Notes under the pieces: generated by a model | Told to the model about the DNA's origin: nothing | Seen by the model: the letters and a program-made list of their open reading frames with translations, nothing else | Database searches by the model: none | Part shown: positions 6,374-27,284 of the stretch, in pieces | How positions within the stretch are numbered: position 1 is the stretch's first letter | Layout of the letters: the number at the start of each line of letters is the position of its first letter | Translations under genes and position numbers: made by a program | DNA from: Fulvivirgaceae bacterium JP3-4 | GTDB lineage: Bacteria > Bacteroidota > Bacteroidia > Cytophagales > Cyclobacteriaceae | Assembly (NCBI GenBank): GCA_029309925.1 | Contig: JARKND010000001.1 | Location: 930,001-994,000, forward strand | DNA length: 64,000 nucleotides | Direction: 5' to 3'

Positions 6374-6377
6374 TTTT

Positions 6378-6407: not shown

Positions 6408-6412
6408 TATAC

Positions 6413-6450
6413 GACAACGGTCTCAGCGATGAGGCCGTTGTTTGCTTTTT
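6413..6450 (+). terminator. First terminator-like hairpin in the greA leader
   Basis: Arms 6415-6425 and 6430-6440 form an 11-bp stem with one G-U pair and a GCGA (GNRA) tetraloop, extended by an A-U pair (6414-6441). A T-rich tail (TTTGCTTTTT) follows. It could end transcripts arriving from the pentapeptide gene, or attenuate greA itself because it begins at the predicted start site. Confidence 0.6.
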
Positions 6451-6487
6451 CGCCTCCGTGAATAAAAACGGGGCGAATTTTATTTTT
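6451..6487 (+). terminator. Second terminator-like hairpin in the greA leader
   Basis: Arms 6451-6459 and 6468-6475 form an 8-bp stem with one bulged T (6455) and an 8-base A-rich loop, followed by AATTTTATTTTTC. It lies directly after the first hairpin and 19 bases before the greA start codon. Confidence 0.5.
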
Positions 6488-6505
6488 CAACTAACGATCA
6501 TCGTT

Positions 6506-6979: not shown

Positions 6980-6989
6980 CCCGGGAATT

Positions 6990-7385
6990 ATGGCGAGTAT
7001 TTTCACGCGCATCATCAACCGTGAGATTCCGGCCTACATCGTTGCCGAGAATGATCAGTACATTGCATTTCTTGACATCAATCCGCTCGTGGTGGGACAT
7101 ACGCTGGTTATTCCGAAAAAAGAAATCGATTTCATATTTGATCTGGATGATGAGACGCTGGCCGGCCTGAACCTTTTTGCCAAGAAGGTTGCGCTCGCGA
7201 TTAAGAAATCGATTCCATGTCGGAGAGTCGGAGTGGCGGTGATCGGGCTTGAAGTGCCGCATACACACATTCACCTCGTGCCGATGAATTCAATGAATGA
7301 TCTTAATTTCACAAGATCAAAACTCAGCCCGTCAAAAGAGGAGCTGGCCGAGGCTGCAGAAAAAATCAAAAAAGCTTTTGTTTAA
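6990..7385 (+). CDS. HIT family protein (histidine-triad nucleotide hydrolase)
   Basis: A 131-residue histidine-triad protein of the Hint/HinT branch, which hydrolyses nucleoside phosphoramidates or similar AMP derivatives. The catalytic motif is HTHIHLVP near residue 90; the N-terminal SIFTRIINREIPA is typical. It is ten bases behind greA, a frequent Bacteroidota pairing, and its stop codon overlaps tail-to-tail with gpsA within TTTAAA (7381-7386). Confidence 0.94.
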   Translation: MASIFTRIINREIPAYIVAENDQYIAFLDINPLVVGHTLVIPKKEIDFIFDLDDETLAGLNLFAKKVALAIKKSIPCRRVGVAVIGLEVPHTHIHLVPMNSMNDLNFTRSKLSPSKEELAEAAEKIKKAFV

Positions 7386-10112: not shown

Positions 10113-10159
10113 CGGGATCGCAAAATAATACAAATTCTATCACTGGTGTATAAAAACGA

Positions 10160-10402
10160 TCAGGCGATCCGGTGCTGCGCCTGTGCCAGCGATGCCGCCA
10201 TCTGTTCGAAGCGCGCAATGCATTGACTTACAAATTCTTCATCAACAAGCTGAACAACTTCCTGCTCGTGGTTCAGGTCGTATTCATTGAGCTTGAACGT
10301 CTGTTCAAAGAAGCCGCGCTCTACTTTAATAATGTAGCGGTTGTTCCAGGCAAAAAGGGTGATTTTGCAGGAGGGATGAGCAATTTCTTTGATGACTCGC
10401 AT
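10160..10402 (-). CDS. Conserved hypothetical protein, 80 residues
   Basis: A small soluble protein with an N-terminal beta-rich half (CKITLFAWNNRYIIKVERG) and a C-terminal helical half. No known motif or signal peptide. It lies between the PlsB-like gene and the 58-residue ORF on the same strand, and short gaps suggest one operon of small proteins with plsB and gpsA. I recognise no family beyond small hypothetical proteins of Bacteroidota. Confidence 0.65.
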   Translation of the reverse strand: MRVIKEIAHPSCKITLFAWNNRYIIKVERGFFEQTFKLNEYDLNHEQEVVQLVDEEFVSQCIARFEQMAASLAQAQHRIA

Positions 10403-10444
10403 ACCAGGGAAAAGTCAGCAAAGGTAATTAAGATTGGGATATTA

Positions 10445-10621
10445 TCAGCTGAGATCCGAAGGGGGCGCAAGGCGCGTTTTTACAGTTTCAAGTTCCTGTT
10501 CGAGATTCTTATAGACAGGGCTGCTGCTGAGGTTATCTTGCTTCATTTGCCGAATGATCTTCTGAAGTTCAGCTTCTCGTTTTTTAAGAAGCGCCTTCAT
10601 CATCATGGGATCAGGTTTCAT
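10445..10621 (-). CDS. Small helical protein, 58 residues
   Basis: An ORF starting MKPDPMMMKALLKKREAE and ending in APPSDLS. It is lysine- and glutamate-rich with a heptad-like helix over residues 8-50, so a short coiled coil is likely. No signal peptide or catalytic motif. It ends 42 bases before the 80-residue gene on the same strand and may be its operon leader gene. Supported by codon pattern and context only. Confidence 0.5.
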   Translation of the reverse strand: MKPDPMMMKALLKKREAELQKIIRQMKQDNLSSSPVYKNLEQELETVKTRLAPPSDLS

Positions 10622-10965
10622 CTTTTGCGGATCGGGGGATTGGTGTGACGCAATTTATTTATTTATACACAAATGCTAAAGGCCAAACGTCATTTCTTCA
10701 CCGTTTTTTCGATTCATACGCGAAAGCAGATGCAAGTAAGCTGTTCGGGTTAAAAAACTTAACCGAAATAAAATAATATTGCGCAGTGTACCGGGTATGA
10801 TTTTGTTCCACCTAAGCTGCCGTATTTTACGCGTTCGATTTTAAAAGAAATCGCTAAAAACCAGACTAATTTGTGGATTTTACCGTTACCTTGAGTACGT
10901 TAGTTGGGGAATAATCCGGGTCAAATCCCGACACCGCGCGAAAGAGTAAATTTTCTTTTCCTTGA
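10622..10965. other. Gene-free stretch upstream of the surface protein gene
   Basis: No ORF or RNA gene is evident. It contains a stem-loop GGTTAA/TTAACC (10748-10764) and a second short stem CGGG/CCCG (10917-10930) 35 bases before the 10966 start. No exact TAnnTTTG element was found on the plus strand, so the promoter of the large gene is unassigned. Confidence 0.5.
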
Positions 10966-13911
10966 ATGAATTTGAGTTCACCATTTTCTAAACTTTTGTT
11001 TGCAGGTATCCTGTGGCTCGGGATTTCTATCTCTGCCTACGCGACACATCTTCGCGCAGGAGAAATCACAGTCGAGCGTGTCAGCTGTAATAGTCTGACC
11101 TTCAGGATCACGATTACCGTGTTCACGAACACCAAGAATACAAGCGTATTGTTTGGGGGCGAAGATGACTGGCTGGACTTTGGTGACGGTTCTAAGCCGA
11201 TACTGGTTCCTGAAACACCGAATACGTTGCGTCCGGACCTGGGCGAGGGAATTGCAACAGCTTCCTTTACAATTGAGTATACCTATCCGGGATTCGGTGA
11301 GTACATCATCAGCTACAGCGAGCCCAACCGGAACGAAGGCGTTGTAAACATGGACCTATCCGTCAACACACGCTTTTATCTCGAGACAAAAATTCTTGTT
11401 GATCCATTCTTTGGCTGCAATAACACACCAAAGCTCCTGGTACCACCAATCGACCGTGCGTGTACTGGCGTTGCCTGGTTCCATAACCCAGGTGCTTACG
11501 ATCCTGATGGCGACAGCATCTCATACGAACTGGTAGTACCGTTTAGAGCGGAAGGTCAAACTGTTATCAATTATAAAGACCCAAGCGATCCAAAATTTTA
11601 TACAAATTATGAGATTGGAAATGAGGCAGGGACGGGAAGGCCAACCTTCAATATCAACCCGACTGACGGAACACTCACGTGGGATGCACCGGGATTGGCC
11701 GGAGAGTACAACGTGGCTTTTATTGTCAGGGAATGGAGAAACATCGGAGGTCAATGGTACTCCAACGGCTTTGTTCGCAGGGATATGCAGATCATTGTCG
11801 ATGACTGCGATAACGAACGACCTGACCTGGAAGTGCCTGAAGACATCTGCGTGGTAGCAGGCACTGTGATTGATGAGACGATTTTTGGAACAGATCCCGA
11901 CAACGATCCGGTAAAGATCGAAGCGTTCTCTGAAATCTTCGAGTTTGCTGTCGCACAATCGCCAGCAACATGGAAACCCGATGACGGAGTTTTCAGACCA
12001 TCATCGCCTGCGTATCAGCTTAAGTTTCAATGGCAAACAAAATGCGAGCACGTCAAGGAGCAACCTTACCAGGTTGTATTCAAGATAACCGATAACTCAA
12101 AAGAAGGCGCTAATCTCGTTACGTTCAAGACCTGGAAGATCCGGGTTGTTGGTCCCCCTCCTGAATGGGCAAATGCCACTGTTGATTTGCAGACGCGTGT
12201 CAGCACGGTGACGTGGGATCCTTACTTCTGTCAGAATGCAGAGACCATGCAAGTGTGGAGACGGGTTGATAGTTTTGAGTTTGAGCCCGACTCGTGCCAG
12301 ACGGGAATGCCGGAGTTTCTGGGCTATGAGATGATTGCGACTGTCAACGCAAAGACGACTACGCAATTTATTGACAATAACAATGGAGCCGGACTGGCCG
12401 CAGGCGCTCAATATTGCTACCGCCTTGTCGCAATATTTCCTTTGCCAAAAGGGGGTGAAAGTTATGTTTCAGAAGAGATTTGTCTCGATCCGATCCTGGC
12501 TGACGAACCGGTTATCACGAATGTTTCAATTGAAAGAACTGCATCCAGCTCCGGTCGGATTGTGGTTCGTTGGACGGAACCCTTTGAGATTGACAAGACG
12601 CAGTTCCCCGAGCCGTATCAATACGAAGTTTACCGAGCAGAAGGTTTTGCGGGAAATACGAATCTGACAAAAGCCCATCCAGGCCTTTTGAGCGACACTT
12701 TCCTGATAGATGAAGAAACGAGCCTCAATACACGTGATATCATTTACAACTATCGTGTGATTCTCTGGGCGAAAAGTGCGACCAATCCGCAGCCTGCCAG
12801 AATTGATACATCGTCAATAGCCTCAACGGTTCGGCTGAACGCACAGAGTGAAGTCGGCCAAATCCAGCTAAACTGGTCAGCATTCGTCCCTTGGTCAAAT
12901 ATCGTTCAGACAAATCCGAACAAACATTTACTCTTCCGCGGTCCGAAAGCTTCAACAGAAGCAGATCTGGTGCTCATCGCTGAAATCGATCCGACAACAG
13001 GTGGAATGACTTACCTCGATCAGGGTCAGCATAACAACGTGCCGCTTAAGGATTCTGAAGAGTATTGCTATCGCGTAATGACGCGGGGCGCATACGGGAA
13101 TCCTTTCCTCAAAGAACCGCTTGAAAATTTCTCACAGATTGTTTGCGCACAACCTAACGATACGATTCCGCCCTGCACGCCTACGCTGGCTGTTCAGCTG
13201 ACAAATTGTGAGGAGTTCTTTGCAACACAGCCGTGCAACATCAGCAGTTTTAAAAACACACTTTCGTGGACGCGCGCGACATCGGACACGTGTGCTGCAG
13301 ATATTCAGGGTTATAAAATCTATCGCTCATCCTCGACCGATGGTGTGTACGTATGGCTTGACAATATTGGTGAAGAAGGGATTGTGCGCGATACTTTCTT
13401 CATAGACGATGGCGAAAATCATATCGGACTTCCATCACTGGCTTTCTGCTACAAGGTTTCAGCCGTAGATCGGTCTGGCAATGAGAGCGAGTTGAGTGAA
13501 GCATCGTGCAACGACAATTGCCCGTATTATGAACTGCCTAACGTGTTCTCTCCGGATGATAAGAACGGATGTAACGACACTTTCAGCGCGTGGCGGACTC
13601 CAGAAGCTTATGGAAGCACTGATGAGAGCAGCGGGCAAGTAACCTGGAAGTGTGGTGAAGTAGATACAAAAAAATGTGCGCGATTTGTCGAGTCTGTAGT
13701 CTTTCACGTTTATAACAGATGGGGCAAAGAAGTCTACTCATACGAATCAGGCAGTGAACGATCAATTTATATTGACTGGGATGGAAGAGATAATGAAGGC
13801 CGTGAACTTGCGGCTGGCATCTACTACTACTCTGCAGATGTTGTGTTTGATTCTGTAGACCCTGCGAAAGCAAATCAAACAGTCAAAGGCTGGGTTCACC
13901 TGCTCCGCTGA
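10966..13911 (+). CDS. Secreted gliding-motility-associated C-terminal domain protein (T9SS type B sorting)
   Basis: A 981-residue exported protein. A signal peptide (residues 1-26, cleavage after AYA) is followed by PKD- and cadherin-like regions (DPDGDSISYEL, GTDPDNDPVKIE), several fibronectin-III-like segments with conserved Tyr-Cys-Tyr patterns, and a C-terminal 100-residue domain starting NVFSPDDKNGCND and ending VKGWVHLLR, which contains VYNRWGKEVY and WDGRDNEGRELAAGIYYY. That C-terminal pattern is the gliding-motility-associated (CHU_C-type) sorting domain recognised by the type IX system. Likely a cell-surface adhesin; ligand unknown. Confidence 0.92.
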   Translation: MNLSSPFSKLLFAGILWLGISISAYATHLRAGEITVERVSCNSLTFRITITVFTNTKNTSVLFGGEDDWLDFGDGSKPILVPETPNTLRPDLGEGIATASFTIEYTYPGFGEYIISYSEPNRNEGVVNMDLSVNTRFYLETKILVDPFFGCNNTPKLLVPPIDRACTGVAWFHNPGAYDPDGDSISYELVVPFRAEGQTVINYKDPSDPKFYTNYEIGNEAGTGRPTFNINPTDGTLTWDAPGLAGEYNVAFIVREWRNIGGQWYSNGFVRRDMQIIVDDCDNERPDLEVPEDICVVAGTVIDETIFGTDPDNDPVKIEAFSEIFEFAVAQSPATWKPDDGVFRPSSPAYQLKFQWQTKCEHVKEQPYQVVFKITDNSKEGANLVTFKTWKIRVVGPPPEWANATVDLQTRVSTVTWDPYFCQNAETMQVWRRVDSFEFEPDSCQTGMPEFLGYEMIATVNAKTTTQFIDNNNGAGLAAGAQYCYRLVAIFPLPKGGESYVSEEICLDPILADEPVITNVSIERTASSSGRIVVRWTEPFEIDKTQFPEPYQYEVYRAEGFAGNTNLTKAHPGLLSDTFLIDEETSLNTRDIIYNYRVILWAKSATNPQPARIDTSSIASTVRLNAQSEVGQIQLNWSAFVPWSNIVQTNPNKHLLFRGPKASTEADLVLIAEIDPTTGGMTYLDQGQHNNVPLKDSEEYCYRVMTRGAYGNPFLKEPLENFSQIVCAQPNDTIPPCTPTLAVQLTNCEEFFATQPCNISSFKNTLSWTRATSDTCAADIQGYKIYRSSSTDGVYVWLDNIGEEGIVRDTFFIDDGENHIGLPSLAFCYKVSAVDRSGNESELSEASCNDNCPYYELPNVFSPDDKNGCNDTFSAWRTPEAYGSTDESSGQVTWKCGEVDTKKCARFVESVVFHVYNRWGKEVYSYESGSERSIYIDWDGRDNEGRELAAGIYYYSADVVFDSVDPAKANQTVKGWVHLLR

Positions 13912-14159
13912 CGAAGCCCCGTATTGTTTTTGCTGTCTTTGCACCTTGCATCCACATTATCCAGCATGATCCGTCAGGCAAGTTTGCTTTTGCATCGCAA
14001 AATCGTGGTAGCCAAAAACTGTTCATTGGAACAATCGCTACAACATTTTTTTTTGACGGCAGGCTTTGGATGCTATTACTACTTGACCTCACGCGCTCGC
14101 TTTAGCGGCCAGCACTATTCTTCCATTATCGTCCCTCCTTCGATTTCATGAGATTTTTA

Positions 14160-14167
14160 TATTTTTG
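14160..14167 (+). promoter_or_regulatory. -7 promoter element of fabD
   Basis: TATTTTTG matches TAnnTTTG exactly, 22 bases before the fabD ATG at 14190. No clear -33 TTG at the right distance. Confidence 0.4.
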
Positions 14168-14189
14168 CCACTCTATATTCGGAACCTAA

Positions 14190-15077
14190 ATGAGCGTTTA
14201 CATGAAAGCATATGTTTTTCCAGGACAAGGATCACAGTTCCCAGGCATGGCAAAAGACTTATATGACAACAACCCAAAAGCAAAAGAGTTGCTGGAAAAA
14301 GCTAATAGTATCCTTGGATTCCGAATTACCGATACCATGTTCAGCGGAACAGCAGATGAACTCAAGCAGACGAAAGTGACCCAGCCAGCAATTTTTTTAC
14401 ATTCGGTTGTTCTTGCACTAACCAGTGAAAGTTTTGCGCCTGATATGGTGGCAGGTCATTCGCTGGGTGAGTTCTCTGCGCTTGTGGCAAACAAAACACT
14501 TTCGTTCGAAGACGGACTCACGCTTGTTTATAAACGCGCGCTCGCAATGCAACGAGCTTGTGAAATCAATCCATCAACAATGGCGGCCATACTCGGGCTC
14601 GCAGATGAGAAGGTTGAAGAGATCTGTGCATCAATTAAGGATGAGATTGTGGTAGCCGCAAACTACAATTGCCCTGGTCAGCTTGTAATTTCCGGAACGA
14701 TGAAAGGCGTTGAAATAGCGTGCGAAAAAATGAAGGCTGCCGGAGCCAAGCGCGCACTTCCTTTGCCAGTGGGTGGTGCGTTCCATTCTCCACTGATGGA
14801 ACCAGCAAGGGAAGAACTCGCGAAAGCGATCGAGAGCACAACATTTTCAAAGGCAATTTGTCCTGTATATCAAAATGTCAATGCCGCTCCATCATCGGAG
14901 AATTCTGCAATAAAGAAAAACCTCATTGCGCAGCTTACCGCTCCTGTTCGCTGGACACAATCGGTGCAACGAATGACAGCCGATGGTGCTAAACTGTATG
15001 TTGAATGCGGACCTGGAAAAGTTCTGCAGGGCCTCGTCAAGAAAATCTCACCTGACGCTGAAGTAGCAAGTCTATAA
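14190..15077 (+). CDS. fabD: Malonyl-CoA:ACP transacylase
   Basis: FabD loads malonyl groups from CoA onto acyl carrier protein for fatty-acid chain extension. The 295-residue protein shows VFPGQGSQFPGM, the catalytic serine in GHSLGEFSAL, the arginine motif KRALAMQ and the catalytic histidine in GGAFHSPLM. Many homologues begin at MKAYVFPGQG, which would be the ATG at 14202. It stands alone here, with fabF-acpP 47 kb away, and overlaps folK tail-to-tail by six bases. Confidence 0.96.
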   Translation: MSVYMKAYVFPGQGSQFPGMAKDLYDNNPKAKELLEKANSILGFRITDTMFSGTADELKQTKVTQPAIFLHSVVLALTSESFAPDMVAGHSLGEFSALVANKTLSFEDGLTLVYKRALAMQRACEINPSTMAAILGLADEKVEEICASIKDEIVVAANYNCPGQLVISGTMKGVEIACEKMKAAGAKRALPLPVGGAFHSPLMEPAREELAKAIESTTFSKAICPVYQNVNAAPSSENSAIKKNLIAQLTAPVRWTQSVQRMTADGAKLYVECGPGKVLQGLVKKISPDAEVASL

Positions 15078-15572
15078 CTGAAGTCTTTCCACTGAAAGGG
15101 GATCTTCGCATTCCGACAATAGCACGCTAATCGGTTTCCGCAGGATCGGATGAACAAAGTCTGGCGCTATTTCAGCCATAGGAGCAAGTGTAAAACGCCT
15201 CTTGTGTAACGCGGGGTGCGGTACCTCCAACTTTTCTGTTTTGATGACGATGTCATCGTAAAAAAGGATATCAATGTCGATTAATCGCGGACCCCACTTG
15301 ATTTCGCGCTGCCGCCCCATTTGTTTTTCTATTGTCAGGACTGCTTCAAGGAGTTCGTGCGGTGTTCGCTCCGTCAGCACCTCAGTAACCTGGTTAAAGA
15401 ACTCAGGCTGATCTGTTTTACCCCAGGCAGCGGTTTGATAAATCCCGGACTCACAAATGATTTTTCCTGCTGTAATTTCCAACTGTTGTTTCGCGACTAA
15501 CAGGTTAGTATGACGGTCACCGAGGTTAGTGCCTAACAATAAAAACACGCGTTTGTTTAACGGTTGCTGCAC
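15072..15572 (-). CDS. folK: 2-amino-4-hydroxy-6-hydroxymethyldihydropteridine pyrophosphokinase
   Basis: FolK transfers pyrophosphate from ATP to 6-hydroxymethyl-7,8-dihydropterin in folate synthesis. The 166-residue protein has the N-terminal LLLGTNLGDRHTNL and the family signature GPRLIDIDILFYDD, including the two metal-binding aspartates. Divergent from sppA across about 60 bases. Confidence 0.96.
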   Translation of the reverse strand: MQQPLNKRVFLLLGTNLGDRHTNLLVAKQQLEITAGKIICESGIYQTAAWGKTDQPEFFNQVTEVLTERTPHELLEAVLTIEKQMGRQREIKWGPRLIDIDILFYDDIVIKTEKLEVPHPALHKRRFTLAPMAEIAPDFVHPILRKPISVLLSECEDPLSVERLQL

Positions 15573-15633
15573 GATGCAAACATACTTTTTTATTCCATCG
15601 AGTATTGCTTATTTTGAGCCTAAATAGTGAATT

Positions 15634-17403
15634 ATGAGTTTTGGTAAAGCGTTTCTGTCGTCCTGTCTCGGTGCACTCGTTGCCATGATCGTCTTTTCGA
15701 TGATCGCGGTGTTTTTTGTTATCGGACTCGTAAGCAGTGCCGGGTCAGATGACAAAGTAGTGATTGCCGACAACTCAGTTCTTCACTTGAAACTCGATGC
15801 ACAGATCAACGAACTTCAGCAAGACGATCCTTTCGCAGGGCTGCCCGTTTTAGGCAACAGTGTGCCCAAGATCGGCTTGCTGCAATTAAAGGAAGCCATC
15901 CAACACGCGAAGGATGACAACAGCATAAAAGGAATTTACCTTGAAGTCAGCTATCCAATGACAGGGTTTGCCTCACTGGAAGAAATCAGGGAATCGCTGA
16001 TTGATTTCCGCGAAAGCGGTAAGTGGGTTGTAGCCTATAACGAAGTGATGTCGGAGGGTGCTTATTATCTCGCGTCAGCGGCATCAGAGGTATATCTCCA
16101 TCCGGAAGGTGAAATTGAATTCAACGGTCTTACAGCAGAAATTGGTTTTTACAAAAATCTTTTGGATAAACTGGAAATCAAGCCACAGGTTTTCCGCGTA
16201 GGCGAATTTAAGAGTGCCGTGGAGCCGTTCCTTCTCGAAAAAATGAGTGCAGAAAATCGCTTTCAGCTTCAGGAAATGGTGAATTCGATCTATGATCATG
16301 TTCTTACAAGGATATCTGAATCGCGCAAGGTACCGAAGGATGTGCTGAAAAATGTTTCAGACAAGATGCAGATTCAAAATGCATCAGCTGCGGTCGAGTT
16401 TAAGCTTGTTGATTCACTGCTGTACCTCGATCAGTTCCAGGCGAATCTGCGCAAGAGACTCGGGGTGGATGACACCGATGATATCAAGCTGGTCAAGTAT
16501 AACAAATACAGAAAGAGTTATTCGAATTATAAAAGCTCGAAGAATGAAATTGCGGTTATCGTTGCCGAAGGCGCAATCATGCCCGGGTCAAATGATGACT
16601 CAGAACAGGTGATCGCTGCTGATCGGTTTGTAGACGAAATCCGAAAAGCGAGGGAAGACGATGATGTGAAAGCTGTTGTATTGCGTGTCAATTCTCCCGG
16701 TGGTGAGTTCCGCTCATCAGACATGATATGGCGTGAAATCGAACTGACGAAGAAAGTAAAGCCAGTCATTGCTTCAATGGCTGACTATGCTGCCTCAGGC
16801 GGGTACTACTTATCTATGGGATGCGATACAATCGTGGCGCAGCCTCATACCATCACCGGATCGATCGGTATTTTTGGAATCCTGTTCGACATGAGCGGAT
16901 TTCTCGGCAACAAACTGGGGATCACGTTCGATGAAGTTCGGACCGGTGACTTTGGCGATACGTACACAGTAACAAGACCGCTGACGCAGGTGGAAAAGAA
17001 TTTCATCCAGAAAAATCTTGAGGATCACTATAACACTTTTACACAGAAGGCAGCCGATGGCCGCGGTGTAAATCAATCAGATATCCAGCAGGTGGCTTCT
17101 GGCCGTGTGTGGACAGGTGCGCAGGCAAAAGAGCGCAAGCTCGTTGACGTGCTCGGTGGTTTCAACGATGCGGTGGAGATCGCTGCAAAGGAAGCCAATG
17201 TGGCAGATGATTATAAAGTTCGCTACTATCCGAGACAGAAACCATTCTTCGAACAATTGGTAACGCAGCTTGAAGAAAACGCTACGGCCGGGCGCATCGA
17301 CAGCGAACTCGGTGATTTAAAGGTGTACTATCAGCAGCTGAAGAAAGTTCAGCGATATAATGGTGCTGAAGCAATTCTGCCATTCGAACTACAAATTCAT
17401 TAG
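15634..17403 (+). CDS. sppA: Signal peptide peptidase SppA, 67K type
   Basis: A 589-residue inner-membrane serine protease that degrades cleaved signal peptides. One N-terminal TM helix (about residues 10-34) is followed by two S49 domains. The general-base lysine is in the first domain (VGEFKSAVEPF) and the nucleophilic serine in the second (DYAASGGYYLSMG). Size and double-domain layout match the E. coli-type tetramer. It precedes bioB by seven bases. Confidence 0.95.
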   Translation: MSFGKAFLSSCLGALVAMIVFSMIAVFFVIGLVSSAGSDDKVVIADNSVLHLKLDAQINELQQDDPFAGLPVLGNSVPKIGLLQLKEAIQHAKDDNSIKGIYLEVSYPMTGFASLEEIRESLIDFRESGKWVVAYNEVMSEGAYYLASAASEVYLHPEGEIEFNGLTAEIGFYKNLLDKLEIKPQVFRVGEFKSAVEPFLLEKMSAENRFQLQEMVNSIYDHVLTRISESRKVPKDVLKNVSDKMQIQNASAAVEFKLVDSLLYLDQFQANLRKRLGVDDTDDIKLVKYNKYRKSYSNYKSSKNEIAVIVAEGAIMPGSNDDSEQVIAADRFVDEIRKAREDDDVKAVVLRVNSPGGEFRSSDMIWREIELTKKVKPVIASMADYAASGGYYLSMGCDTIVAQPHTITGSIGIFGILFDMSGFLGNKLGITFDEVRTGDFGDTYTVTRPLTQVEKNFIQKNLEDHYNTFTQKAADGRGVNQSDIQQVASGRVWTGAQAKERKLVDVLGGFNDAVEIAAKEANVADDYKVRYYPRQKPFFEQLVTQLEENATAGRIDSELGDLKVYYQQLKKVQRYNGAEAILPFELQIH

Positions 17404-18542: not shown

Positions 18543-21419
18543 ATGGGAAAACTTTTTAAAATACTCTTTGCCTTAAGTCTGATCGTCAACTCCACTTACG
18601 CGCAAGTCGATACCACTTTAATCTACAGCAACGACCGGCCGTATGGTTCGCTGGATATCAGGATTGCAAAGTCATCAAGCAATTATTATTTCCTTGTTGA
18701 AGACAAGACCTTTTCTTTTCGTAAGAATGCAGGCGCAAATACCGACACCTATCTGGATATGACATCATGGGATTCGTCTCCCTATGCCCAAGGTCACATG
18801 AAGGAAAAAACAAGCACTGCTGATCTCTTTGTAATGAACTACCGCCTGCTGAAGCCGGAAAACTATAGCGCAACGTATTCGCCTGGCTACCCTTTGGTTG
18901 TTATTTTCCACGGACTGGGCGAACGCGGCAATTGCTGGGACAATAGATGCTACCATGCGGACGGAGCATGGACGCCAAACACAAATTCACCCGCTGCGCC
19001 AACAGATCCGACTTCGCAGCTCCTCAATAACGATCATCAGCTCACAAACAGTGGTAACGCTCATCTTCGCGCGCGTAACGAAGCGAAAGGCAAGCTGCCA
19101 AATGACGCGACACTGAGTCAGAAGGCTTTTCCCGGATTCGTGCTTCAACCACAAAACCTTAATGGTTGGACTGTATCGACAGTACAGGATGCGATACGGC
19201 TCACACGATTGATCGCAAAGAAGTATAATATTGACGAAAACAGGATTTATGTTCATGGACTTTCGAACGGTGGACAAGGTGCCTTCGAAGCGCTGAAGCG
19301 TGCGCCATGGATGTTTGCGGCCGCAGCGATGATGTCACCCATTGGCGATGCGCTTATCAATCAGCAGGGAATGGCTGGAAGTATTGCACACATTCCGATG
19401 TGGATCTTTCAGGGTGGCCAGGACAAGAATCCATATCCACAGAAAACAGAATCCATGATCCGGAAATTTCGCGATGCTGGTGCGGTTGTGCGTTACACAC
19501 TTTATCCGGAGTTGGGTCACGGCACCTGGGCAAGTGCTTACCGTGAGCCCGATTTCTTTAGCTGGTTCCTCGGGAAAAATCTTACTAACCTTCACTTGTA
19601 TGCGGGGCAGGGTGTGATTTGCGGAACGACAGGAGTGAAACTTCAGCTTCCGCAGGGTTATCTGGCATATCAATGGCAATTGAACGGGCAGAATATCTCC
19701 GGAGCAACTACCGGAACTTTTACTGCAACCACCGCTGGCAAATACAGAGCACGTTTTGCAAGGGTCGCGAATCCAAGTGAGCAACAGTGGCAGCCTTGGT
19801 CGCAGGAGGTCCAGGTCAATGCAGGTCAGGCTTTGCCTCAGGCACAGATCATTCAGAAAAATACCGTGTTACTCCGCGACCCCAATGGAGGAAATGAAAC
19901 AACACTCGAAGCAAAAGGATCATACGACCGATATCATTGGTTCAAGAATGGAGCCCGTGTCGATTTTCCTGGTGATGATGATGATTCACTTTCGTCAGTA
20001 ACGATCAATGCAACGATGGGAGCAGGTCAATACACGTTGGTTGTTTCAAATTTTGACGGATGCAGCAGCCCTGCCTCCGCACCAAAAAATATCATGTTCA
20101 ATGATCAGGCTGCGATGACAATCACCGCGCCATCAGGTGTCAACGGTAGTGTTGTATCGGGCGTGGAAGTTACATTAACGTGGACAGACGCGTCAGCCAA
20201 TGAGACGAATTTTGAGATCTGGAGACGGAGGAAAATTAATAATACTACGTTTGCGCCCTGGGAATTTGTCGCACTCACGCCTGCAAATACAACCTCTTAT
20301 AAAGACTCAGGCCTACTTTCGTCTACGTCATACGAATACAAAGTTCGCGCAGTCAGCAGCAATGCGCGTTCAGAGTATTCGCCTGCCGGGGCAGCGGGCT
20401 TCGCATTGACAACTACGGTTGATACCCAGGCGCCCTCTGTGCCAGCCCGGCCAGATGCTCAGGTCATCGGTGTGTCTAAGGTTAGAGTCTCATGGGCACC
20501 CTCTACCGACAATAGTGGTGTGAAGGACTATGTGATTTATTTTGGAGAAGATTCCGTTATTACTACAAACTCGGATACTGTCTTCGTGGTGACAGGGATG
20601 CCGACAAACGGTGAGTTTAAGGTGACCGTCAAAGCACGCGATAATTCCGGCAATCTGAGTGCTGCAAGTCAGCAGGTCAACGTCAATACCTATGTAACAG
20701 GCTTATACTACGAGCACAGTACCGGTGCGTGGCCAGACCTCGATTCGATCAACTGGACCTACGCGGAATTCACCGGGAGAGTTCCTGAGTTTACCCTGGC
20801 TCCGAGAACTCAGGAGGAATTCTTCAACTTTAAGTTTGATGGATTTTTGTTCATAGAAAATGAAGGTAATTACGAATTCAGGGTAGGCTCAAATGATGGG
20901 AGCCGCATGGTGCTGAGTAATGAAGTGATTATCGAGAACGATGGTATACATGATTTTAAGGTTGTGGCCAGCGCTGCCAAAGCTAAAGCGAAAGGAGCGC
21001 ATCGTGTTACTGTATACTTCTTTGAATACACGGGAGTGGATAGTCTGCTGGTGGAATACAAAGGTCCGGACACACAGGGTCAGTGGTCGAAAATTCCACG
21101 GGAAAAACTTAAGAGTGCCGAACAGCTGGTAACTGCCATCGGGCCAGACAACGGACCTGAAGACAGTTTCAGCGTAGATGTATATCCAAATCCGACCTCC
21201 GCGGATAATATTCACCTTGCCGTGACCACTGTCATCGATGACCCGGTATCGATTCACCTCATCGATCCAATAGGGCGTACGTTGATTCGGAAAATCTTTC
21301 AGCGTGACGAAACTGAAGATGTGCGACTCTCCCTCGAGGGAGATTTGCGTCCCGGAGTTTATTTCATTGAAGTAATCCAGCGAAACATAGCAGTCAGGCA
21401 GCGTATCGTTATCAGGTAA
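18543..21419 (+). CDS. Secreted multidomain esterase with Ig, FN3, PA14 domains and T9SS tail
   Basis: A 958-residue exported protein. Signal peptide (to about residue 20), then an alpha/beta-hydrolase domain of the polyhydroxybutyrate-depolymerase/feruloyl-esterase type with nucleophile Ser241 in HGLSNGGQ, catalytic His326 in LGHGTW and a likely Asp in GGQDKNPYP. Then two Ig-like and two FN3-like segments, a PA14-like domain from about residue 720 (GLYYEHSTGAWPDL, FRVGSNDGSRMVL), and a C-terminal T9SS type A sorting domain (VDVYPNPTSADN ... PGVYFIEV). PA14 suggests binding of a glycan, so a role in polysaccharide ester removal is plausible. Paralogue of the next gene. Confidence 0.88.
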   Translation: MGKLFKILFALSLIVNSTYAQVDTTLIYSNDRPYGSLDIRIAKSSSNYYFLVEDKTFSFRKNAGANTDTYLDMTSWDSSPYAQGHMKEKTSTADLFVMNYRLLKPENYSATYSPGYPLVVIFHGLGERGNCWDNRCYHADGAWTPNTNSPAAPTDPTSQLLNNDHQLTNSGNAHLRARNEAKGKLPNDATLSQKAFPGFVLQPQNLNGWTVSTVQDAIRLTRLIAKKYNIDENRIYVHGLSNGGQGAFEALKRAPWMFAAAAMMSPIGDALINQQGMAGSIAHIPMWIFQGGQDKNPYPQKTESMIRKFRDAGAVVRYTLYPELGHGTWASAYREPDFFSWFLGKNLTNLHLYAGQGVICGTTGVKLQLPQGYLAYQWQLNGQNISGATTGTFTATTAGKYRARFARVANPSEQQWQPWSQEVQVNAGQALPQAQIIQKNTVLLRDPNGGNETTLEAKGSYDRYHWFKNGARVDFPGDDDDSLSSVTINATMGAGQYTLVVSNFDGCSSPASAPKNIMFNDQAAMTITAPSGVNGSVVSGVEVTLTWTDASANETNFEIWRRRKINNTTFAPWEFVALTPANTTSYKDSGLLSSTSYEYKVRAVSSNARSEYSPAGAAGFALTTTVDTQAPSVPARPDAQVIGVSKVRVSWAPSTDNSGVKDYVIYFGEDSVITTNSDTVFVVTGMPTNGEFKVTVKARDNSGNLSAASQQVNVNTYVTGLYYEHSTGAWPDLDSINWTYAEFTGRVPEFTLAPRTQEEFFNFKFDGFLFIENEGNYEFRVGSNDGSRMVLSNEVIIENDGIHDFKVVASAAKAKAKGAHRVTVYFFEYTGVDSLLVEYKGPDTQGQWSKIPREKLKSAEQLVTAIGPDNGPEDSFSVDVYPNPTSADNIHLAVTTVIDDPVSIHLIDPIGRTLIRKIFQRDETEDVRLSLEGDLRPGVYFIEVIQRNIAVRQRIVIR

Positions 21420-21542
21420 TACGCTTACCTGATGTGAGGAATTTCGCGAACCCTTTGGGGTTTCACGATATAGTTTGATATCGTTTGCATGAGGAATGGA
21501 AATTTTCCCCGCTAATGTATTCTTCCTCTTAAAGGCTACGCT

Positions 21543-23153
21543 ATGAAAAGACTCTTTACACTTATCACATTTTGCCTGTGCTCTTTATACTCGCTGTCGC
21601 AGGTAAAGTCGAATTATATTTACAGCACATCGATGCCCTATGGCACACTCGACCTTCGGACGAAGATCAGCAGCACCAACTACTATTACCTGAACGAGAA
21701 CCAGACTTTTTCTTTTCGTGAGAGTTCTCCGGGCATCAGAACGAACACTTACATGGATATGACGAGCTGGGATTCGTCACCCTACACGCAGGGACACCTC
21801 AGATGGAAAAATGGGACAAGCGACAAATTCGTTTTGAACTACCGGCTGCTTAAGCCCAATAATTATCAATCAACGTATGCAGAAGGATACCCGCTCATTG
21901 TGATTATGCATGGAGCCGTTGAGCGCGGTAACTGTTACTATAATGCGTGCTACCATTCAAACTTTTCCTATGATCCAAACAGAAATTCTCCAGCCGCGCC
22001 TAAGACGAGCACGCACAAGCTTCTCAACAACGATCATCATGTGAGCATCGGAGGCAAACAGCATCTCGATGCCAGAACGCTTGCAGGAACGAAGCTGCCG
22101 AACGACCCAACACTTGCATCGCGGGCCTTTCAGGGTTTCGTGCTGATGCCGCAGATGATGAATATCTGGGATTCGTTAAACGTCCAGGATGTGATTCGGA
22201 CGGTGCGGCTTTTGCAGGAAAAATACAAGATTGATCCTAACCGGATTTACATTCACGGACTTTCGATCGGGGGCTATGCGGTTTACCAGGCGATTAAGAG
22301 AGCACCATGGATGTTTGCCGCAGCGCTTCCGATGTCAGCGGTGACCGAAGCCGCTTACATCTTTAAGCACAATCAACAAAACAAGGTGGCACACATTCCG
22401 CTGTGGGTGTTTCAGGGCGCAACAGACACCAACCCGACACCATCATTCACGCAGAATGTCATTAATAAATTTAAAGCGGCAGGTGCCACACCGCGTTACA
22501 CAGTGTACTCGTCCACAGGGCACATTGTATGGAACAAAGCGTATGCAGAACCTGATTTCTTTTCATGGATGAAGACGAAGAATAAGGCTGACCTGCATGC
22601 TTACAAAGGCATTACTACTATAATTAAAAGCAAGAGTCAGTATCCGAAGCTGATGTTGGCTGAAGGATTCTTTGCATATCAATGGGAGAAGAATGGGGTG
22701 ATTATTTCCGGAGCAGCGTCCAATACCTACACCGTTACAACACCGGGCAAATACAGGGCACGATTTTCAAGAATCTCGTCAGCTCCCACGGCATCGCAAT
22801 GGAACCGGTGGTCACTTCCCGTTACTATTACAGAGACTACTGCCACTACAGCTGCCGGGGAACTTGTTGAGGTGGTTGATTTGACAACGGAGGAGCTATC
22901 AGCTGATGTGTATCCGAATCCAACCTCATCAGATCGAATCCAACTCAAACTGCAGGTGCCAGGGGAAGGCGCAGTTCACATCCAGATAGTTGATCAGATT
23001 GGACGGTCATATTTTACGGATCGCCTGGTTGACGTGCCAGGTGAAGGTCGCGTGGAAGTGAGCGTACCCGGTGGTCTTGCTGACGGAATGTACCTGCTCC
23101 ATATCAGCCACGGGGAGCGTAAAGTTGTTCAGCGAGTTATGATCAAGAATTAG
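21543..23153 (+). CDS. Secreted esterase with Ig-like domain and T9SS tail (paralogue of upstream gene)
   Basis: A 536-residue shorter version of the preceding protein. Signal peptide, the same N-terminal block (TSWDSSPY... RGNC....CYH), hydrolase domain with nucleophile Ser241 in HGLSIGGYA and His327 in TGHIVW, one Ig-like domain (FFAYQWEKNG) and a T9SS type A tail (VYPNPTSSDRIQ). It lacks the second Ig, FN3 and PA14 regions, which points to tandem duplication followed by domain gain or loss. The separating 123 bases hold no gene. Confidence 0.87.
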   Translation: MKRLFTLITFCLCSLYSLSQVKSNYIYSTSMPYGTLDLRTKISSTNYYYLNENQTFSFRESSPGIRTNTYMDMTSWDSSPYTQGHLRWKNGTSDKFVLNYRLLKPNNYQSTYAEGYPLIVIMHGAVERGNCYYNACYHSNFSYDPNRNSPAAPKTSTHKLLNNDHHVSIGGKQHLDARTLAGTKLPNDPTLASRAFQGFVLMPQMMNIWDSLNVQDVIRTVRLLQEKYKIDPNRIYIHGLSIGGYAVYQAIKRAPWMFAAALPMSAVTEAAYIFKHNQQNKVAHIPLWVFQGATDTNPTPSFTQNVINKFKAAGATPRYTVYSSTGHIVWNKAYAEPDFFSWMKTKNKADLHAYKGITTIIKSKSQYPKLMLAEGFFAYQWEKNGVIISGAASNTYTVTTPGKYRARFSRISSAPTASQWNRWSLPVTITETTATTAAGELVEVVDLTTEELSADVYPNPTSSDRIQLKLQVPGEGAVHIQIVDQIGRSYFTDRLVDVPGEGRVEVSVPGGLADGMYLLHISHGERKVVQRVMIKN

Positions 23154-23539: not shown

Positions 23540-23695
23540 TTAGTTTTCCTCAGATACAAGTCCGCCAACCGCTTCTGATTTTGAAGTTGTCGCGACAGTG
23601 TTGTCAACCGATTTCTGTTCGTGTGTTGCAACGTAGGTAAATGAAAGGGTTACAATAGCTGTTAGAATTACCAACAATGTCATCTTGATTTTCAT
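23540..23695 (-). CDS. Tiny exported protein with C-terminal GGLVSE motif, 51 residues
   Basis: Starts MKIKMTLLVILTAIVTLSF, a signal peptide or membrane anchor without a lipobox cysteine, followed by a Ser/Thr-rich stretch and the C-terminus SEAVGGLVSEEN. The motif GGLVSE matches GGGVSE of the three lipoproteins upstream on the same strand, at the same distance from the C-terminus, so it is taken as the last member of the cluster. The tail after VSE is only EN. No known family recognised. Confidence 0.6.
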   Translation of the reverse strand: MKIKMTLLVILTAIVTLSFTYVATHEQKSVDNTVATTSKSEAVGGLVSEEN

Positions 23696-23754
23696 ATACG
23701 TGGTATTTTTGGTGTTCGTATTTGGATTAAGGAATATTGAGTGAATAGCGGTGA

Positions 23755-23895
23755 TTACTTATCAGGGAATTCGCTAACGCCACCACCACCAGTGCCAGTA
23801 CCAGTCGTTTGTGGTTCAACTTGTTCTTCAGTGCATGAAGTGATTGTAACACTTGCCGCGAATCCAATCAGGATAATGTAGAGTAGCTTTTTCAT
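23755..23895 (-). CDS. Tiny lipoprotein, 46 residues, tail FPDK
   Basis: A lipoprotein signal peptide (MKKLLYIILIGFAASVTITS) ends at a lipobox cysteine, Cys21. The mature part is CTEEQVEPQ, then TGTGTGGGGVSE, then FPDK. It is 59 bases upstream of the 51-residue gene on the minus strand. Mature sequence is only 26 residues, too short for a folded domain. Near-identical to its two upstream neighbours except for the last four residues. Function unknown. Confidence 0.72.
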   Translation of the reverse strand: MKKLLYIILIGFAASVTITSCTEEQVEPQTTGTGTGGGGVSEFPDK

Positions 23896-23952
23896 AATCG
23901 GTTTAGGTTTTTTTGGTTTGTGTTTAGGATTAGATACTGAAATCGGTAACTA

Positions 23953-24087
23953 TTAAGGCCATTCGCTAACGCCACCGCCACCAGTTCCGGTTCCGGTGCT
24001 CTGAGGTTCAACTTGCTCCTCTGTGCACGAGGTTATAGTAAGGCTGGCTGCGATGCCAATGAGAAGGATGTAGAATAGCTTTTTCAT
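23953..24087 (-). CDS. Tiny lipoprotein, 44 residues, tail WP
   Basis: Lipoprotein signal peptide with lipobox ITSC (Cys21), mature sequence CTEEQVEPQ followed by TGTGTGGGGVSE and the tail WP. Codons for the shared mature part differ at several third positions from its neighbours, so the protein sequence rather than only the DNA is conserved. Spacing to the neighbours is 57 and 48 bases. Confidence 0.72.
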   Translation of the reverse strand: MKKLFYILLIGIAASLTITSCTEEQVEPQSTGTGTGGGGVSEWP

Positions 24088-24135
24088 TTCGGTTTGGTTT
24101 TATGGTATCCGTATGTATTTACCCTTAAGTATTCG

Positions 24136-24285
24136 TTAAGGACAATTCGATGCAGTGCATTCGCTAACGCCACCGCCACCTGTTCCGGTACCGGTATTTT
24201 GTGGTTCAACTTGCTCTTCAGTGCATGATGTAATTGCCAGGGCGGAGGCAACGGTGATCATAAGGATTGACAATAGCTTTTTCAT
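24136..24285 (-). CDS. Tiny lipoprotein, 49 residues, tail CTASNCP
   Basis: First gene of the cluster. Lipoprotein signal peptide ending ITSC (Cys21), mature CTEEQVEPQ, linker TGTGTGGGGVSE, and a seven-residue tail CTASNCP whose two cysteines could form a small disulfide loop. It starts 153 bases from the divergent histidine-kinase gene. No exact TAnnTTTG promoter was found; GCATCTTTG on the minus strand near 24387 is a one-mismatch candidate. Confidence 0.72.
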   Translation of the reverse strand: MKKLLSILMITVASALAITSCTEEQVEPQNTGTGTGGGGVSECTASNCP

Positions 24286-24438
24286 TCTTTAGTAGTGGTT
24301 AAGGTTTAAGCGAAAACTTTAAAATATTGGTTTAGTATTATTCTGTCTTTTGGACTATTTTTATTGGTCGTGATTGACAGTTCAAAGATGCACGGTCGCC
24401 ATTGACTTTACTGAGTAATAATTTTTTATACCTAACCT

Positions 24439-26565
24439 GTGTACTTTATAAATTTTAAGTTCGAAAAATCAGGTCTACTGTTAGGCACGCTTGTGTTGTT
24501 GATTTTTTGCTGCCTGGCTTCGAACGCCCAGAATCAACGGAGACTCGATTCGCTGAATCAAGTACTTGAAAGTGCATCTGGTGCCACGAGGACAGATGTG
24601 CTCTTCGAACTTGCTGCTGAAACTGCCTCTAAAAACAATTCGTTATCCCTTCAGTATGCTTTGGACGCTTACGATAATGCTTCGAGCTACGCAGATACTT
24701 TCAGGATCATAAAAAGTCTGCGGGTAAAAGGTCAGGCTTTCCGAAGGGTCGATAAATTAAATGAATCAATCCGCGCTTTTGCTGAAGGAATGCAGATCGG
24801 AAAAAGGCATGTGACCAACAAAGACATCTTTAAAGAATACAGGAACTGTCTTAACGGTATCGCAATCACCTATCAGTTTCAGGCCGATTACGAAAAAGCT
24901 CTTGAATTTTATTTGATGGCCCTTGACCTGCTGGAATCACAAGGCAATAAAGGGGAGACAAGTATAGTCCTGAACAACATTGGTCTCGTCTATTTCAAGC
25001 TATCTGATTTCACCCGTGCACTTCAATATTATAAAACGTCACTCGCATACAAGCTCGAGAGCGGCAACCATTTTGACATGGATCGCCTGTACATCAACAT
25101 TGGCCTGTGTTACAACCAGGTACAGGATTTTCAGGAGGCGGAAAGAAATTTTCAGAATGCGTTTGCCGTTTGTCGCGAAAACTGCAGCGATGCAATCAAG
25201 GTAGAAGGCCAATATGGTCTGGGTGTTTCGAAGTACGGGCAAAAGCAATATGAGGATGCTTTGAAGCACCTCACTGAATCATTGAGGTTCGCGAAGCAAA
25301 GCTCAAACACGCGTTTTATTGGCGAGAACCTGATCCTGATCGCTCGGGTTAACATGGATATGGACAACCGGAATCAGGCACTCAAAGCGCTGAGCACCGC
25401 AGACAGTCTGATTGTCGCAACGAATTATAACGAGTTACTGATTGACTTGTACAGACAGTATTCGGTTCTGTATATGCAGCTCAGGGATTTCGAAAGGGCA
25501 ACGCTCTACCAGCGCAAGTACATTACACTCAACGACAGCATTTACAGCAAAGAGCTGATCAGCGGTATTGCTAAAGTTCAGACGAAGTATGCCGAGCGAG
25601 AAAACCTGAAGATGATCGCTGATCAGGATGAAGTGATTGAACGTCAGCGAAGCCTTAACTTCGCCATCGTCATCATTGCCTTGCTGGCTGCATTACTCAT
25701 TTTCGTTCTCTTCAGAGCGAATCGCGTTCGCAAAAAAGTTAACCTGGCACTCAGCGATGCCAAAGCAATCATTGAAGATCAGAATCGCCAGCTTTTGAGT
25801 TCGAATTACAATCTCGACCGCGAGCTGAAAGAGAAAAACACCGAACTGCAGAAGGCCAACGAATCGTTGTTACGCGTTAACGATGAGCTCGATAATTTCA
25901 TTTACAAAACTTCTCATGATATCCGGGGGCCACTGGCAAGTCTCAAGGGCATGTGTAACGTTGCGCTTATGGACGTAAAAGATCCGCTTGCGTTGAACTA
26001 CCTGAAGAAGCTTGATATTACCGCAGAAAAACTAAACACGATCCTCACACGATTGCTCATTGTCAACCAGATCAACAACTCTGCACTTGGGCAAGACCGG
26101 ATTGATTTCGATACAATTGTCAATGACGTGTTATTGCTCGAAAAGAAAAAGGGTTTACCATCGAGACTGAAGGTAAAAAAATCGATCGATCCGCTGATCG
26201 AATACTATTCTGACAAGGAGTTTGTTCGCATCATCTTTGAAAACCTGATTGACAACGCCATCAAATTCTATAATGACTCACAGCGTGTCGAACCGTTCGT
26301 TGAGATCATCGTGTCGCAGGAGGAAAATCAAATCCGTATCCGCGTCATCGACAATGGCATCGGTATAAGTGAGGTTCACCCTGACAAGATATTCCAGATG
26401 TTCTCGCGCGCGTCTGAGCGTTCCGAGACCGGAGGGATTGGTTTGTACATCACGAAAACTGCGACTGAAAAGTTGGGTGGTTCGGTGAATTTGAAAACAA
26501 GTCCTGAAGGGTATACTGAGTTTTACGTTCTCCTCCCGCTGTCGACATCCAAAGTGATGGTGTGA
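24439..26565 (+). CDS. TPR-containing sensor histidine kinase, orphan
   Basis: A 708-residue sensor. N-terminal signal/anchor segment (about residues 12-30), a long periplasmic region of about seven TPR repeats (residues 60-390), one TM helix (about 410-430), a coiled coil, then HisKA with the phospho-accepting histidine in KTSHDIRGPLASL, and HATPase_c with N box LIDNAIKFY, G1 DNGIGIS and G2 GGIGLYITK. No ATG exists near the N-terminus; the GTG at 24439 is the best start. No response regulator gene is adjacent. The TPR sensor could bind peptides or proteins in the periplasm; it is divergent from the tiny lipoprotein cluster. Confidence 0.9.
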   Translation: MYFINFKFEKSGLLLGTLVLLIFCCLASNAQNQRRLDSLNQVLESASGATRTDVLFELAAETASKNNSLSLQYALDAYDNASSYADTFRIIKSLRVKGQAFRRVDKLNESIRAFAEGMQIGKRHVTNKDIFKEYRNCLNGIAITYQFQADYEKALEFYLMALDLLESQGNKGETSIVLNNIGLVYFKLSDFTRALQYYKTSLAYKLESGNHFDMDRLYINIGLCYNQVQDFQEAERNFQNAFAVCRENCSDAIKVEGQYGLGVSKYGQKQYEDALKHLTESLRFAKQSSNTRFIGENLILIARVNMDMDNRNQALKALSTADSLIVATNYNELLIDLYRQYSVLYMQLRDFERATLYQRKYITLNDSIYSKELISGIAKVQTKYAERENLKMIADQDEVIERQRSLNFAIVIIALLAALLIFVLFRANRVRKKVNLALSDAKAIIEDQNRQLLSSNYNLDRELKEKNTELQKANESLLRVNDELDNFIYKTSHDIRGPLASLKGMCNVALMDVKDPLALNYLKKLDITAEKLNTILTRLLIVNQINNSALGQDRIDFDTIVNDVLLLEKKKGLPSRLKVKKSIDPLIEYYSDKEFVRIIFENLIDNAIKFYNDSQRVEPFVEIIVSQEENQIRIRVIDNGIGISEVHPDKIFQMFSRASERSETGGIGLYITKTATEKLGGSVNLKTSPEGYTEFYVLLPLSTSKVMV

Positions 26566-26572
26566 CGCGGCC

Positions 26573-26869
26573 CTAGCGGAGCTCCTGCACTTTTTTCACG
26601 ACATCCTCGCTTGCCTTGGTTGCAATCCATAGATCATAGTTTGACTGCAAGTTCATCCAGTATTGTGGGGTTGTTTTGAATGCCTTAGCCAACTTGAGCG
26701 CCATCACTGCAGATATTCCTGCTTTTTGATTTATGATTGAAGATAGATTCGGCCTTGTAATCAAGAGGTGTTCTGAGGCCTGAGTTATATTCATTCCAAT
26801 TGGCTTTAGATAGTATTCAAAAAGTACTTTGCCCGGATGAGGCGGATTAGCCTGCGTCAGCTTCTTCAT
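26573..26869 (-). CDS. higA: HigA family antitoxin
   Basis: A 98-residue HTH_XRE antitoxin of the HigA (VapI) group, starting with the family-typical NPPHPGKVLFEYYLKP. The helix-turn-helix is around ITQASEHLLITRPNLSSIIN and the C-terminal half carries ALKLAKAF..PQYWMNLQ. It binds HigB toxin and represses the operon promoter. It follows the toxin gene by 11 bases, the toxin-first order characteristic of higBA. Confidence 0.92.
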   Translation of the reverse strand: MKKLTQANPPHPGKVLFEYYLKPIGMNITQASEHLLITRPNLSSIINQKAGISAVMALKLAKAFKTTPQYWMNLQSNYDLWIATKASEDVVKKVQELR

Positions 26870-26880
26870 ACCAGTGTCTT

Positions 26881-27162
26881 TTAGTGTGTGTCAACATAAT
26901 CAACATCAAATATTTTCCCATGGTCAAACCGAAATACAATCCGGTAATTTCCGGTGACATCGATTGAATAATATCCTTGATATGGTGGACCTTTCAAAAC
27001 GTGTAGTCGAAAGGAAGGAATGCGCAAGTCGTTTATGTCTATTGCCGAATGCATCATTGCAAGGATGTCTCTGAGTTTCCCGATACGCTCAGGTGGAAGT
27101 TTAGCGCTGTGGCCGGTCAGAAAAAGAGCTTTCAATGCCTTCGATTTAAAAGTAATTATCAT
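26881..27162 (-). CDS. higB: HigB family mRNA-interferase toxin
   Basis: A RelE/ParE-superfamily toxin, HigB type, that cleaves mRNA on the ribosome. The start was moved to the ATG at 27162 (MIITFKSKALKALF), giving 93 residues, the usual size; the longer ORF would read through the promoter. Visible family features are the mid-segment LRIPSFRLHVLKGPPYQGYYSI and C-terminal YRIVFRFDHGKIFDVDYVDTH. Located between the histidine kinase and metG, a common kind of insertion site for toxin-antitoxin modules. Confidence 0.92.
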   Translation of the reverse strand: MIITFKSKALKALFLTGHSAKLPPERIGKLRDILAMMHSAIDINDLRIPSFRLHVLKGPPYQGYYSIDVTGNYRIVFRFDHGKIFDVDYVDTH

Positions 27163-27200
27163 GCTATTACAGTTAGTCCTGTGTAAGCATGCTTCAGCGG

Positions 27201-27235
27201 AGTACAAAACTAATGTAATGCGTACTAAAACACAA
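27201..27235 (-). promoter_or_regulatory. higBA promoter with candidate operator
   Basis: On the minus strand a -33 TTG (27233-27235) and a perfect -7 TAGTTTTG (27205-27212) are 20 bases apart. The inverted repeat AGTAC (27201-27205) / GTACT (27222-27226) brackets the -7 element and is a candidate HigA operator. Confidence 0.5.
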
Positions 27236-27284
27236 TACACGATATTTAGTGTTCGGATATTGATGTTTGTTGTGTTGCGTTGCG

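Follow-up and report, generated by a model that had tools for sequence, protein, structure and literature searches.

Four small exported proteins divergent from a TPR kinase

The window analyzed here, a 64,000-nucleotide stretch of the Fulvivirgaceae bacterium JP3-4 genome (contig JARKND010000001.1, positions 930,001 to 994,000), contains four very small genes for exported proteins beside a gene for a histidine kinase with tetratricopeptide repeats (TPRs). All four open reading frames (ORFs) lie on the minus strand where a sequence-only reading of this DNA had placed them, and they encode 44–51 amino acids. Three encode lipoproteins, here called family A. Copy 1, the nearest to the kinase (24136–24285; defined by its ORF, homologs, and dN/dS), has 49 residues and the tail VSECTASNCP, with a cysteine pair; copy 2 (23953–24087; an ORF and homolog-search query) has 44 residues and the tail VSEWP; and copy 3 (23755–23895; an ORF within repeat family D1) has 46 residues and the tail VSEFPDK. 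The lipobox cysteine is residue 21 in all three, as had been noted. The fourth gene (23540–23695; ORF and profile searches) encodes a 51-residue protein with the tail GGLVSEEN and no lipobox. This protein had been clustered with the three lipoproteins on account of its GGxVSE spacing, but it belongs to a separate conserved family of small exported proteins, family B.

The three A genes of the window are 139-nt direct repeats, spaced 192 and 198 nt apart, with 71% and 77% identity to the reference copy. When the 5.8 Mb genome is scanned with an exact degenerate pattern of the core, these three copies alone turn up, and a search of the same genome at E ≤ 10 found no further match to the window B protein. 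None of the four small proteins reaches a Pfam or NCBIfam cut-off. The earlier proposal that the common core is under selection at the protein level is borne out: in the mature core dN is 0.02–0.03 versus a dS of 0.57–1.46, far below the ratio of 1 expected without constraint, and dN/dS over the whole gene is 0.05–0.19 among the window A copies.

The kinase gene (24439–26565, plus strand; supported by Pfam, a structural model, and co-occurrence) is divergent from the cluster, as described previously, and has the intergenic region 24286–24438 in common with A copy 1. It encodes an orphan histidine kinase of 708 amino acids from a GTG start, although the exact start is uncertain, and comprises an N-terminal signal, a TPR domain, one later hydrophobic helix, and HisKA and HATPase_c domains. 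The signal and the helix beyond the TPRs were recognized by eye from the sequence, and the repeats match Pfam TPR_12 (E = 7.9e-25) and other TPR models. An AlphaFold model of the kinase has a mean pLDDT of 80.8 (about 78–97 in the TPR part) and a pTM of 0.52. It resembles HK853-type kinases and the TPR superhelix of LGN/Pins. The latter is known from complexes with partner proteins, and we count this likeness in favor of a ligand for the TPR domain. Four weaker kinase-like matches in the same genome have, by eye, no comparable small neighbor.

Conservation and linkage of the two families

Homologous tandem ORFs are present in related genomes, including a relative of the same genus (G002); named hosts include Chryseolinea, Ohtaekwangia, Pseudochryseolinea, and Fulvivirga. 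Family A lipoproteins are about 39–58 amino acids long, come in tandem sets of 1 to 5, and have the approximate pattern C-T-E-E-E-V-x-P followed by a tail that is often glycine rich. Across an alignment of 56 rows Cys21 never varies, and Met1, Glu24, and Pro28 hardly do. Family B proteins, of about 46–59 amino acids and without a lipobox, often end in a sequence like EPxGGFxxEDxF and are encoded once per genome, or twice in six held-out genomes. The dN/dS ratio is 0.02–0.21 in twelve A pairs and 0.11–0.16 in five B pairs, and given these pairwise values both A and B are real genes. A profile of family A, run against 341 genomes of the order, matches 13 genomes at E ≤ 1e-12, and every one of them belongs to the window's taxonomic family. 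Weaker matches outside that taxonomic family were rejected as lipoprotein signal peptides, mostly inside longer reading frames.

Differing A tails inside one genome are unusual. Of the 33 genomes for which two or more A proteins are listed, 27 have the same last six residues in all of them; the A sequences listed from the first 33 genomes were mostly distinct ones, so identical copies are undercounted. At this frequency of single tails, the set is not mainly a display of many different tails. The related suggestion of a precursor-like family survives in part: the genes are conserved, selection is purifying, and the tails differ between species, but sets with many different tails are not the rule.

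A cysteine pair is found in 10 of 145 distinct A proteins, window copy 1 included, and lies within the tail in nine of them; a disulfide loop is possible in these ten. Only two-cysteine rows were used for this count, since the lipobox finder had often picked an earlier signal-peptide cysteine in the 21 rows that have a single additional cysteine, making those rows and exact position counts rough. Tails with a cysteine pair (CQFGGPGC, CGGLPC, CDKGC) occur in one subgroup (loci L161, L166, L168, L171, L172, L182, L184, and L203), and window copy 1 offers a parallel with its CTASNC end. Separately, the four-copy A array of genome G630 (L190, about 1750–2490) shifts frame at a run of G, which may be an assembly error.

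Family B and the kinase occur together. In a first sample of 196 genomes of the taxonomic family, all 26 with B (E < 5e-5) fall within the 37 that have the kinase. Among 390 such genomes, B matches (E ≤ 1e-5) are found in 91 and the kinase in 112. After four genomes (G141, G181, G192, and G539) were set aside as partial matches inside frames of 143–436 amino acids, the kinase is present in 86 of the 87 remaining B genomes, the exception being G639, an assembly of about 810 contigs. We give these counts without a P value because the genomes are related. In 105 of the 111 kinase genomes read, family A adjoins the kinase gene in divergent orientation, G656 standing outside the count. These include 36 of 37 in the first set (exception, G099), where A is near a contig end in G172 and G087 and cut in G172. 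In the second set, 68 of 74 were found with a hidden Markov model, and the 69th is G630 with its four-copy array; A and the kinase match are on different contigs in G563 and G668, and in G501, G551, and G524 the contig breaks off no more than about 350 bases from the kinase match.

The genes usually follow the order folK-sppA-bioB-[B,A]-kinase-metG, and the recurrence of this order in many loci is what would be expected if the ORFs were simply carried along in a conserved neighborhood, or had arisen by chance, with no common function. We find this scarcely credible. The dN/dS ratios are far below 1, the genes are jointly present and jointly absent, and in three genomes (G006, G109, and G138) the kinase and A are kept together among other neighbors, without metG or bioB, so that synteny alone fails to explain the A-kinase pair. 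The co-occurrence of B with the kinase and the linkage kept in these three genomes support a real partnership of the cluster with the TPR kinase.

A wider search found kin of the window kinase in 100 of 375 genomes of the phylum (E ≤ 1e-50), some rows matching the TPR part or the kinase part alone. Of 30 loci from this search, the 26 outside the taxonomic family have no convincing small lipoprotein neighbor; a regular-expression match at one TPR kinase locus outside it (L288) was judged spurious.

The neighborhoods hold further genes of note. In the window, two adjoining paralogous large proteins are encoded between bioB and the cluster (18543–23153), the second with a prolyl-oligopeptidase/esterase-type domain and a type IX secretion C-terminal signal; they are absent from the neighbors listed for relatives. 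A HigB-like toxin gene and a helix-turn-helix (HTH) antitoxin-like gene lie between the kinase and metG (26573–27240). Elsewhere, tandem TPR-kinase-like proteins are encoded near the module in L027 (4282–9015), L028 (10913–16552), and L073 (10130–19000), those of L027 and L028 adjoining kinase-like and response-regulator-like genes (named by eye), and G130 has two such kinases in tandem beside one A-B pair (L066, 5147–9387).

Short genes with a constant front and a changing end are also typical of precursors of bacteriocins or other ribosomally synthesized and post-translationally modified peptides (RiPPs), and the window A proteins weakly match the chryseobasin-related MNIO RiPP model (NF050125). 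Their scores of 18.0, 18.3, and 20.4 bits are below its cut-off of 40, and the proteins carry Sec or lipoprotein signals. The matched neighbors are housekeeping genes (folK, sppA, bioB, and metG), with no modifying enzyme recognized among them, the unmatched neighbors not having been searched by family. A RiPP role is thus highly improbable.

Partial coupling of the A and B tails

In a number of genomes the A and B proteins end alike, as in SERV/SERI (G145), FERI/LERI (G089), SERI/SERI (G215), SEKI/SEKI (L097), GPY/QAY (G178), GPF/QAF (G198), SAKMF/SAQSF (G127), and VSE/VSE in the window, or, among the held-out genomes, SDRL/ETRL (G623) and KDDPGF/KDDTTF (G512). We scored this likeness with BLOSUM62 on C-terminally aligned tails. 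In the first set of 33 genomes, from which kinase genomes without complete A and B were excluded (G006, G109, G021, G164, G087, G172, G099, G159, and others), permutation within clades reached the observed value in none of 20,000 trials for 4 residues and gave p values of 0.00005, 0.00135, and 0.0027 for 6, 8, and 10 residues. L094, L095, L097, and L104 were assigned to clades by resemblance, and these labels agree with the genera of G496, G509, G517, and G595. Four control stretches were null (p 0.17–0.57) in 31 of these genomes, G205 and G068 being left out for a split kinase. When tails were swapped between sister genomes, paired by kinase identity within the 31, own pairs were favored 7:1, 9:3, and 9:4 for 4, 6, and 8 residues (ties 7, 3, and 2).

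As the first set had prompted the idea of coupling, the held-out set of 63 genomes carries more weight. It left out genomes in which A or B was missing (G577, G599, G542, G601, G551, and G524) or that had been used already (G509, G496, G517, and G595), and retained odd A calls in G660 and G664. Permutation within genera reached the observed values in 297, 1665, 200, and 58 of 20,000 trials, 1665 being the 6-residue figure, and the four control stretches were again null (5008–17330 of 20,000). Swaps between partners paired by their non-tail parts favored own pairs 13:2, 16:4, and 17:3 (ties 16, 11, and 11; one-sided p 0.0037, 0.0059, and 0.0013, respectively). Residues common to the A and B tails are often in different codons, such as AGA versus CGC for Arg and AGC/AGT versus TCN for Ser; some codons are identical, such as AAA for Lys in L097. 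Because the codons differ at many common residues, recent gene conversion between A and B is unlikely. The coupling of A and B tails is partial.

Partial Mantel tests, whose controls are not clean, compared tail similarity with that of the TPR and kinase domains. With the kinase domain removed, tail and TPR similarity correlate at 0.42 for B and 0.22 for A in 31 genomes, versus −0.12 and −0.03 in the reverse test, and at 0.43 and 0.40 in 58 genomes, versus −0.10 and 0.01; the 58-genome set left out five genomes with no whole kinase (G520, G646, G668, G639, and G563). These values are compatible with, but no proof of, a reading of the tails by the TPR domain. They also bear on an account in which A and B are products of the kinase pathway that act elsewhere, for example at the cell surface, and in which their tails are recognized by some third partner, perhaps a protease or an outer-membrane complex. 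Linkage and co-occurrence are also expected for an autoregulated target, and tail coupling requires merely some common partner. That the tails track the TPR rather than the kinase domain in both samples argues the other way, within the limits of those controls, and no conserved third gene was seen traveling with the module in G006, G109, and G138. We regard this account as decidedly unlikely.

A candidate extracytoplasmic signaling module

The A and B genes are real, their linkage and co-occurrence with a protein bearing TPR and kinase domains are conserved, and their tails are partly coupled. We favor, at a probability of roughly 0.57, a model in which A and B are cognate extracytoplasmic ligands of the kinase, most simply as an autoinducing peptide system. 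A, B, and the kinase would form one signaling module. A would be exported as a lipoprotein that is acidic next to its lipid anchor and perhaps exposed at the cell surface; B would be exported as a peptide that is either anchored in the inner membrane or periplasmic. The TPR superhelix of the kinase, lying outside the cytoplasm, would read the glycine-rich C-terminal tails of both, and their binding would alter kinase output via the transmembrane helix. Most simply, the cells would make their own signal: the amount of A and B, or of tails set free from them, would report on the population or on the state of the envelope. Here we infer the cell topology, the binding of tails in the TPR groove, their processing or release, and the sign of the effect.

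The predicted locations draw on features of the two proteins. After the lipid cysteine, A has mostly Thr, Ser, or Ala followed by two or three acidic residues (mostly C-[TSA]-[EDK]-E-E), the polar-then-acidic arrangement of the Bacteroidetes lipoprotein export signal. Surface-export signals reported for such lipoproteins are SDDDD and SDDFE (PMC5080379). The acidic residues of A resemble such a signal, and no more, so A is perhaps at the cell surface. With about 24 residues, mature A is too small to form a fold of its own. B contains a single hydrophobic stretch, as read from its sequence, and could remain in the inner membrane.

Several results weigh against the ligand model. Signal peptides of held-out A and B proteins also follow the TPR domain (0.36–0.37), still at 0.26–0.29 with the tails partialled out, and because they do so the TPR link is not specific to the tails. 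Once the TPR domain, the kinase domain, and the signals are all partialled out, little correlation is left between A and B tails (−0.01 and 0.08). The 6-residue permutation alone was not significant in the held-out set, mismatched pairs are many (SPIKE versus LQDSDQWK in G574), and many A tails (xDPK, xIKE) are unlike the B tail of their own genome. A was not found in one kinase genome, G099, and B was not found in a few, such as G006, G109, and G021. Nor is a consensus promoter motif enriched between A and the kinase: in 30 of these intergenic regions TAnnTTTG occurs once toward A and five times toward the kinase, versus 5.4 expected per direction, and a stricter TTG promoter pattern occurs once. 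Lastly, the lipid anchor of A favors its staying attached, and no processing step is known for an A precursor.

These last two points speak for anchored feedback regulators, in which A and B, made under control of the kinase, would hold its extracytoplasmic domain on or off much as MgrB does PhoQ, with no peptide release and no signal between cells. Divergent neighboring genes are often autoregulated, which we also count for this alternative. A broadcast signal would account no less well for the several tandem copies that carry a single tail in each genome, for the change of tails between species, and for a lipid-anchored A whose residues resemble a surface signal. On balance, feedback regulation seems rather unlikely, although it and, after it, the third-partner account are the serious rivals of the ligand model.

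If the ligand model is right, the module would represent peptide signaling in the Bacteroidota, a phylum for which the literature we found has no such system; our literature search, beyond whose reach many subscription papers lie, found no description of this module. The module offers a concrete candidate class of ligands, together with a receptor domain, and short tails that can be synthesized and swapped between environmental species. Even as feedback regulators, A and B would be two conserved small-protein families below every Pfam and NCBIfam cut-off.

Among known families, the PG1828-family lipoprotein model (NF050142) matches the A proteins at 20.5, 22.7, and 20.7 bits against a cut-off of 50, over residues 1–27 alone; the weak likeness of A to this and to the chryseobasin-related model is mostly over the signal peptide. 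With the FimS model (NF053520), whose cut-off is 600, the kinase scores 123.5 bits. FimS of Porphyromonas gingivalis is a histidine kinase with a periplasmic TPR sensor, for which a published account states the signal to be unknown and suggests a polypeptide ligand (PMC11053733). The window kinase, by its sequence, probably likewise has TPR motifs in an extracytoplasmic sensor domain. MgrB (47 amino acids), SafA, and UgtS are described as tiny exported proteins acting on PhoQ from the membrane or periplasm side (PMC10576120). A and B are similarly tiny exported proteins beside a sensor kinase, on which they are proposed to act by analogy. Unlike with MgrB, two protein families, often multi-copy, adjoin the kinase, and the four small proteins have no Pfam or NCBIfam match at cut-off that would place them with it. 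PhoQ is not known to have a TPR domain.

The closest parallel is with the RRNPPA systems of Firmicutes (Rap-Phr, PlcR-PapR). In these systems a TPR receptor gene adjoins a short gene whose product is a precursor exported by Sec and bearing a lysine pair, the active part is at the C terminus, and sometimes several adjoining propeptide genes encode identical or slightly different peptides (PMC9765709). The module here likewise combines a candidate TPR-domain receptor with an adjoining gene for a short exported precursor, in the 105 of 111 kinase genomes noted above, and its multi-copy A arrays, with one tail per genome and a change of tail between species, recall the Rap loci with two adjoining propeptide genes, which in some cases encode identical peptides (PMC9765709). 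In contrast to the cytoplasmic, mostly DNA-binding RRNPPA receptors, the proposed receptor is a membrane histidine kinase, with its TPRs predicted to lie outside; the precursors are lipoproteins or membrane anchored, are divergent from the receptor gene, occur in Bacteroidota, and would not need re-import. Membership of RRNPPA fails on this receptor type (HisKA, HATPase_c, and hydrophobic stretches seen by eye), and the function would be similar only in kind. Tentatively, and with doubt as to the whole, the module might represent a class of peptide-based cell-cell signaling in Bacteroidota: A would be a lipid-anchored propeptide and B a second one, their tails would match each other, be specific to the species, and define pherotypes, and the TPRs of the kinase would sense them. 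This class would be an extracytoplasmic counterpart of RRNPPA signaling.
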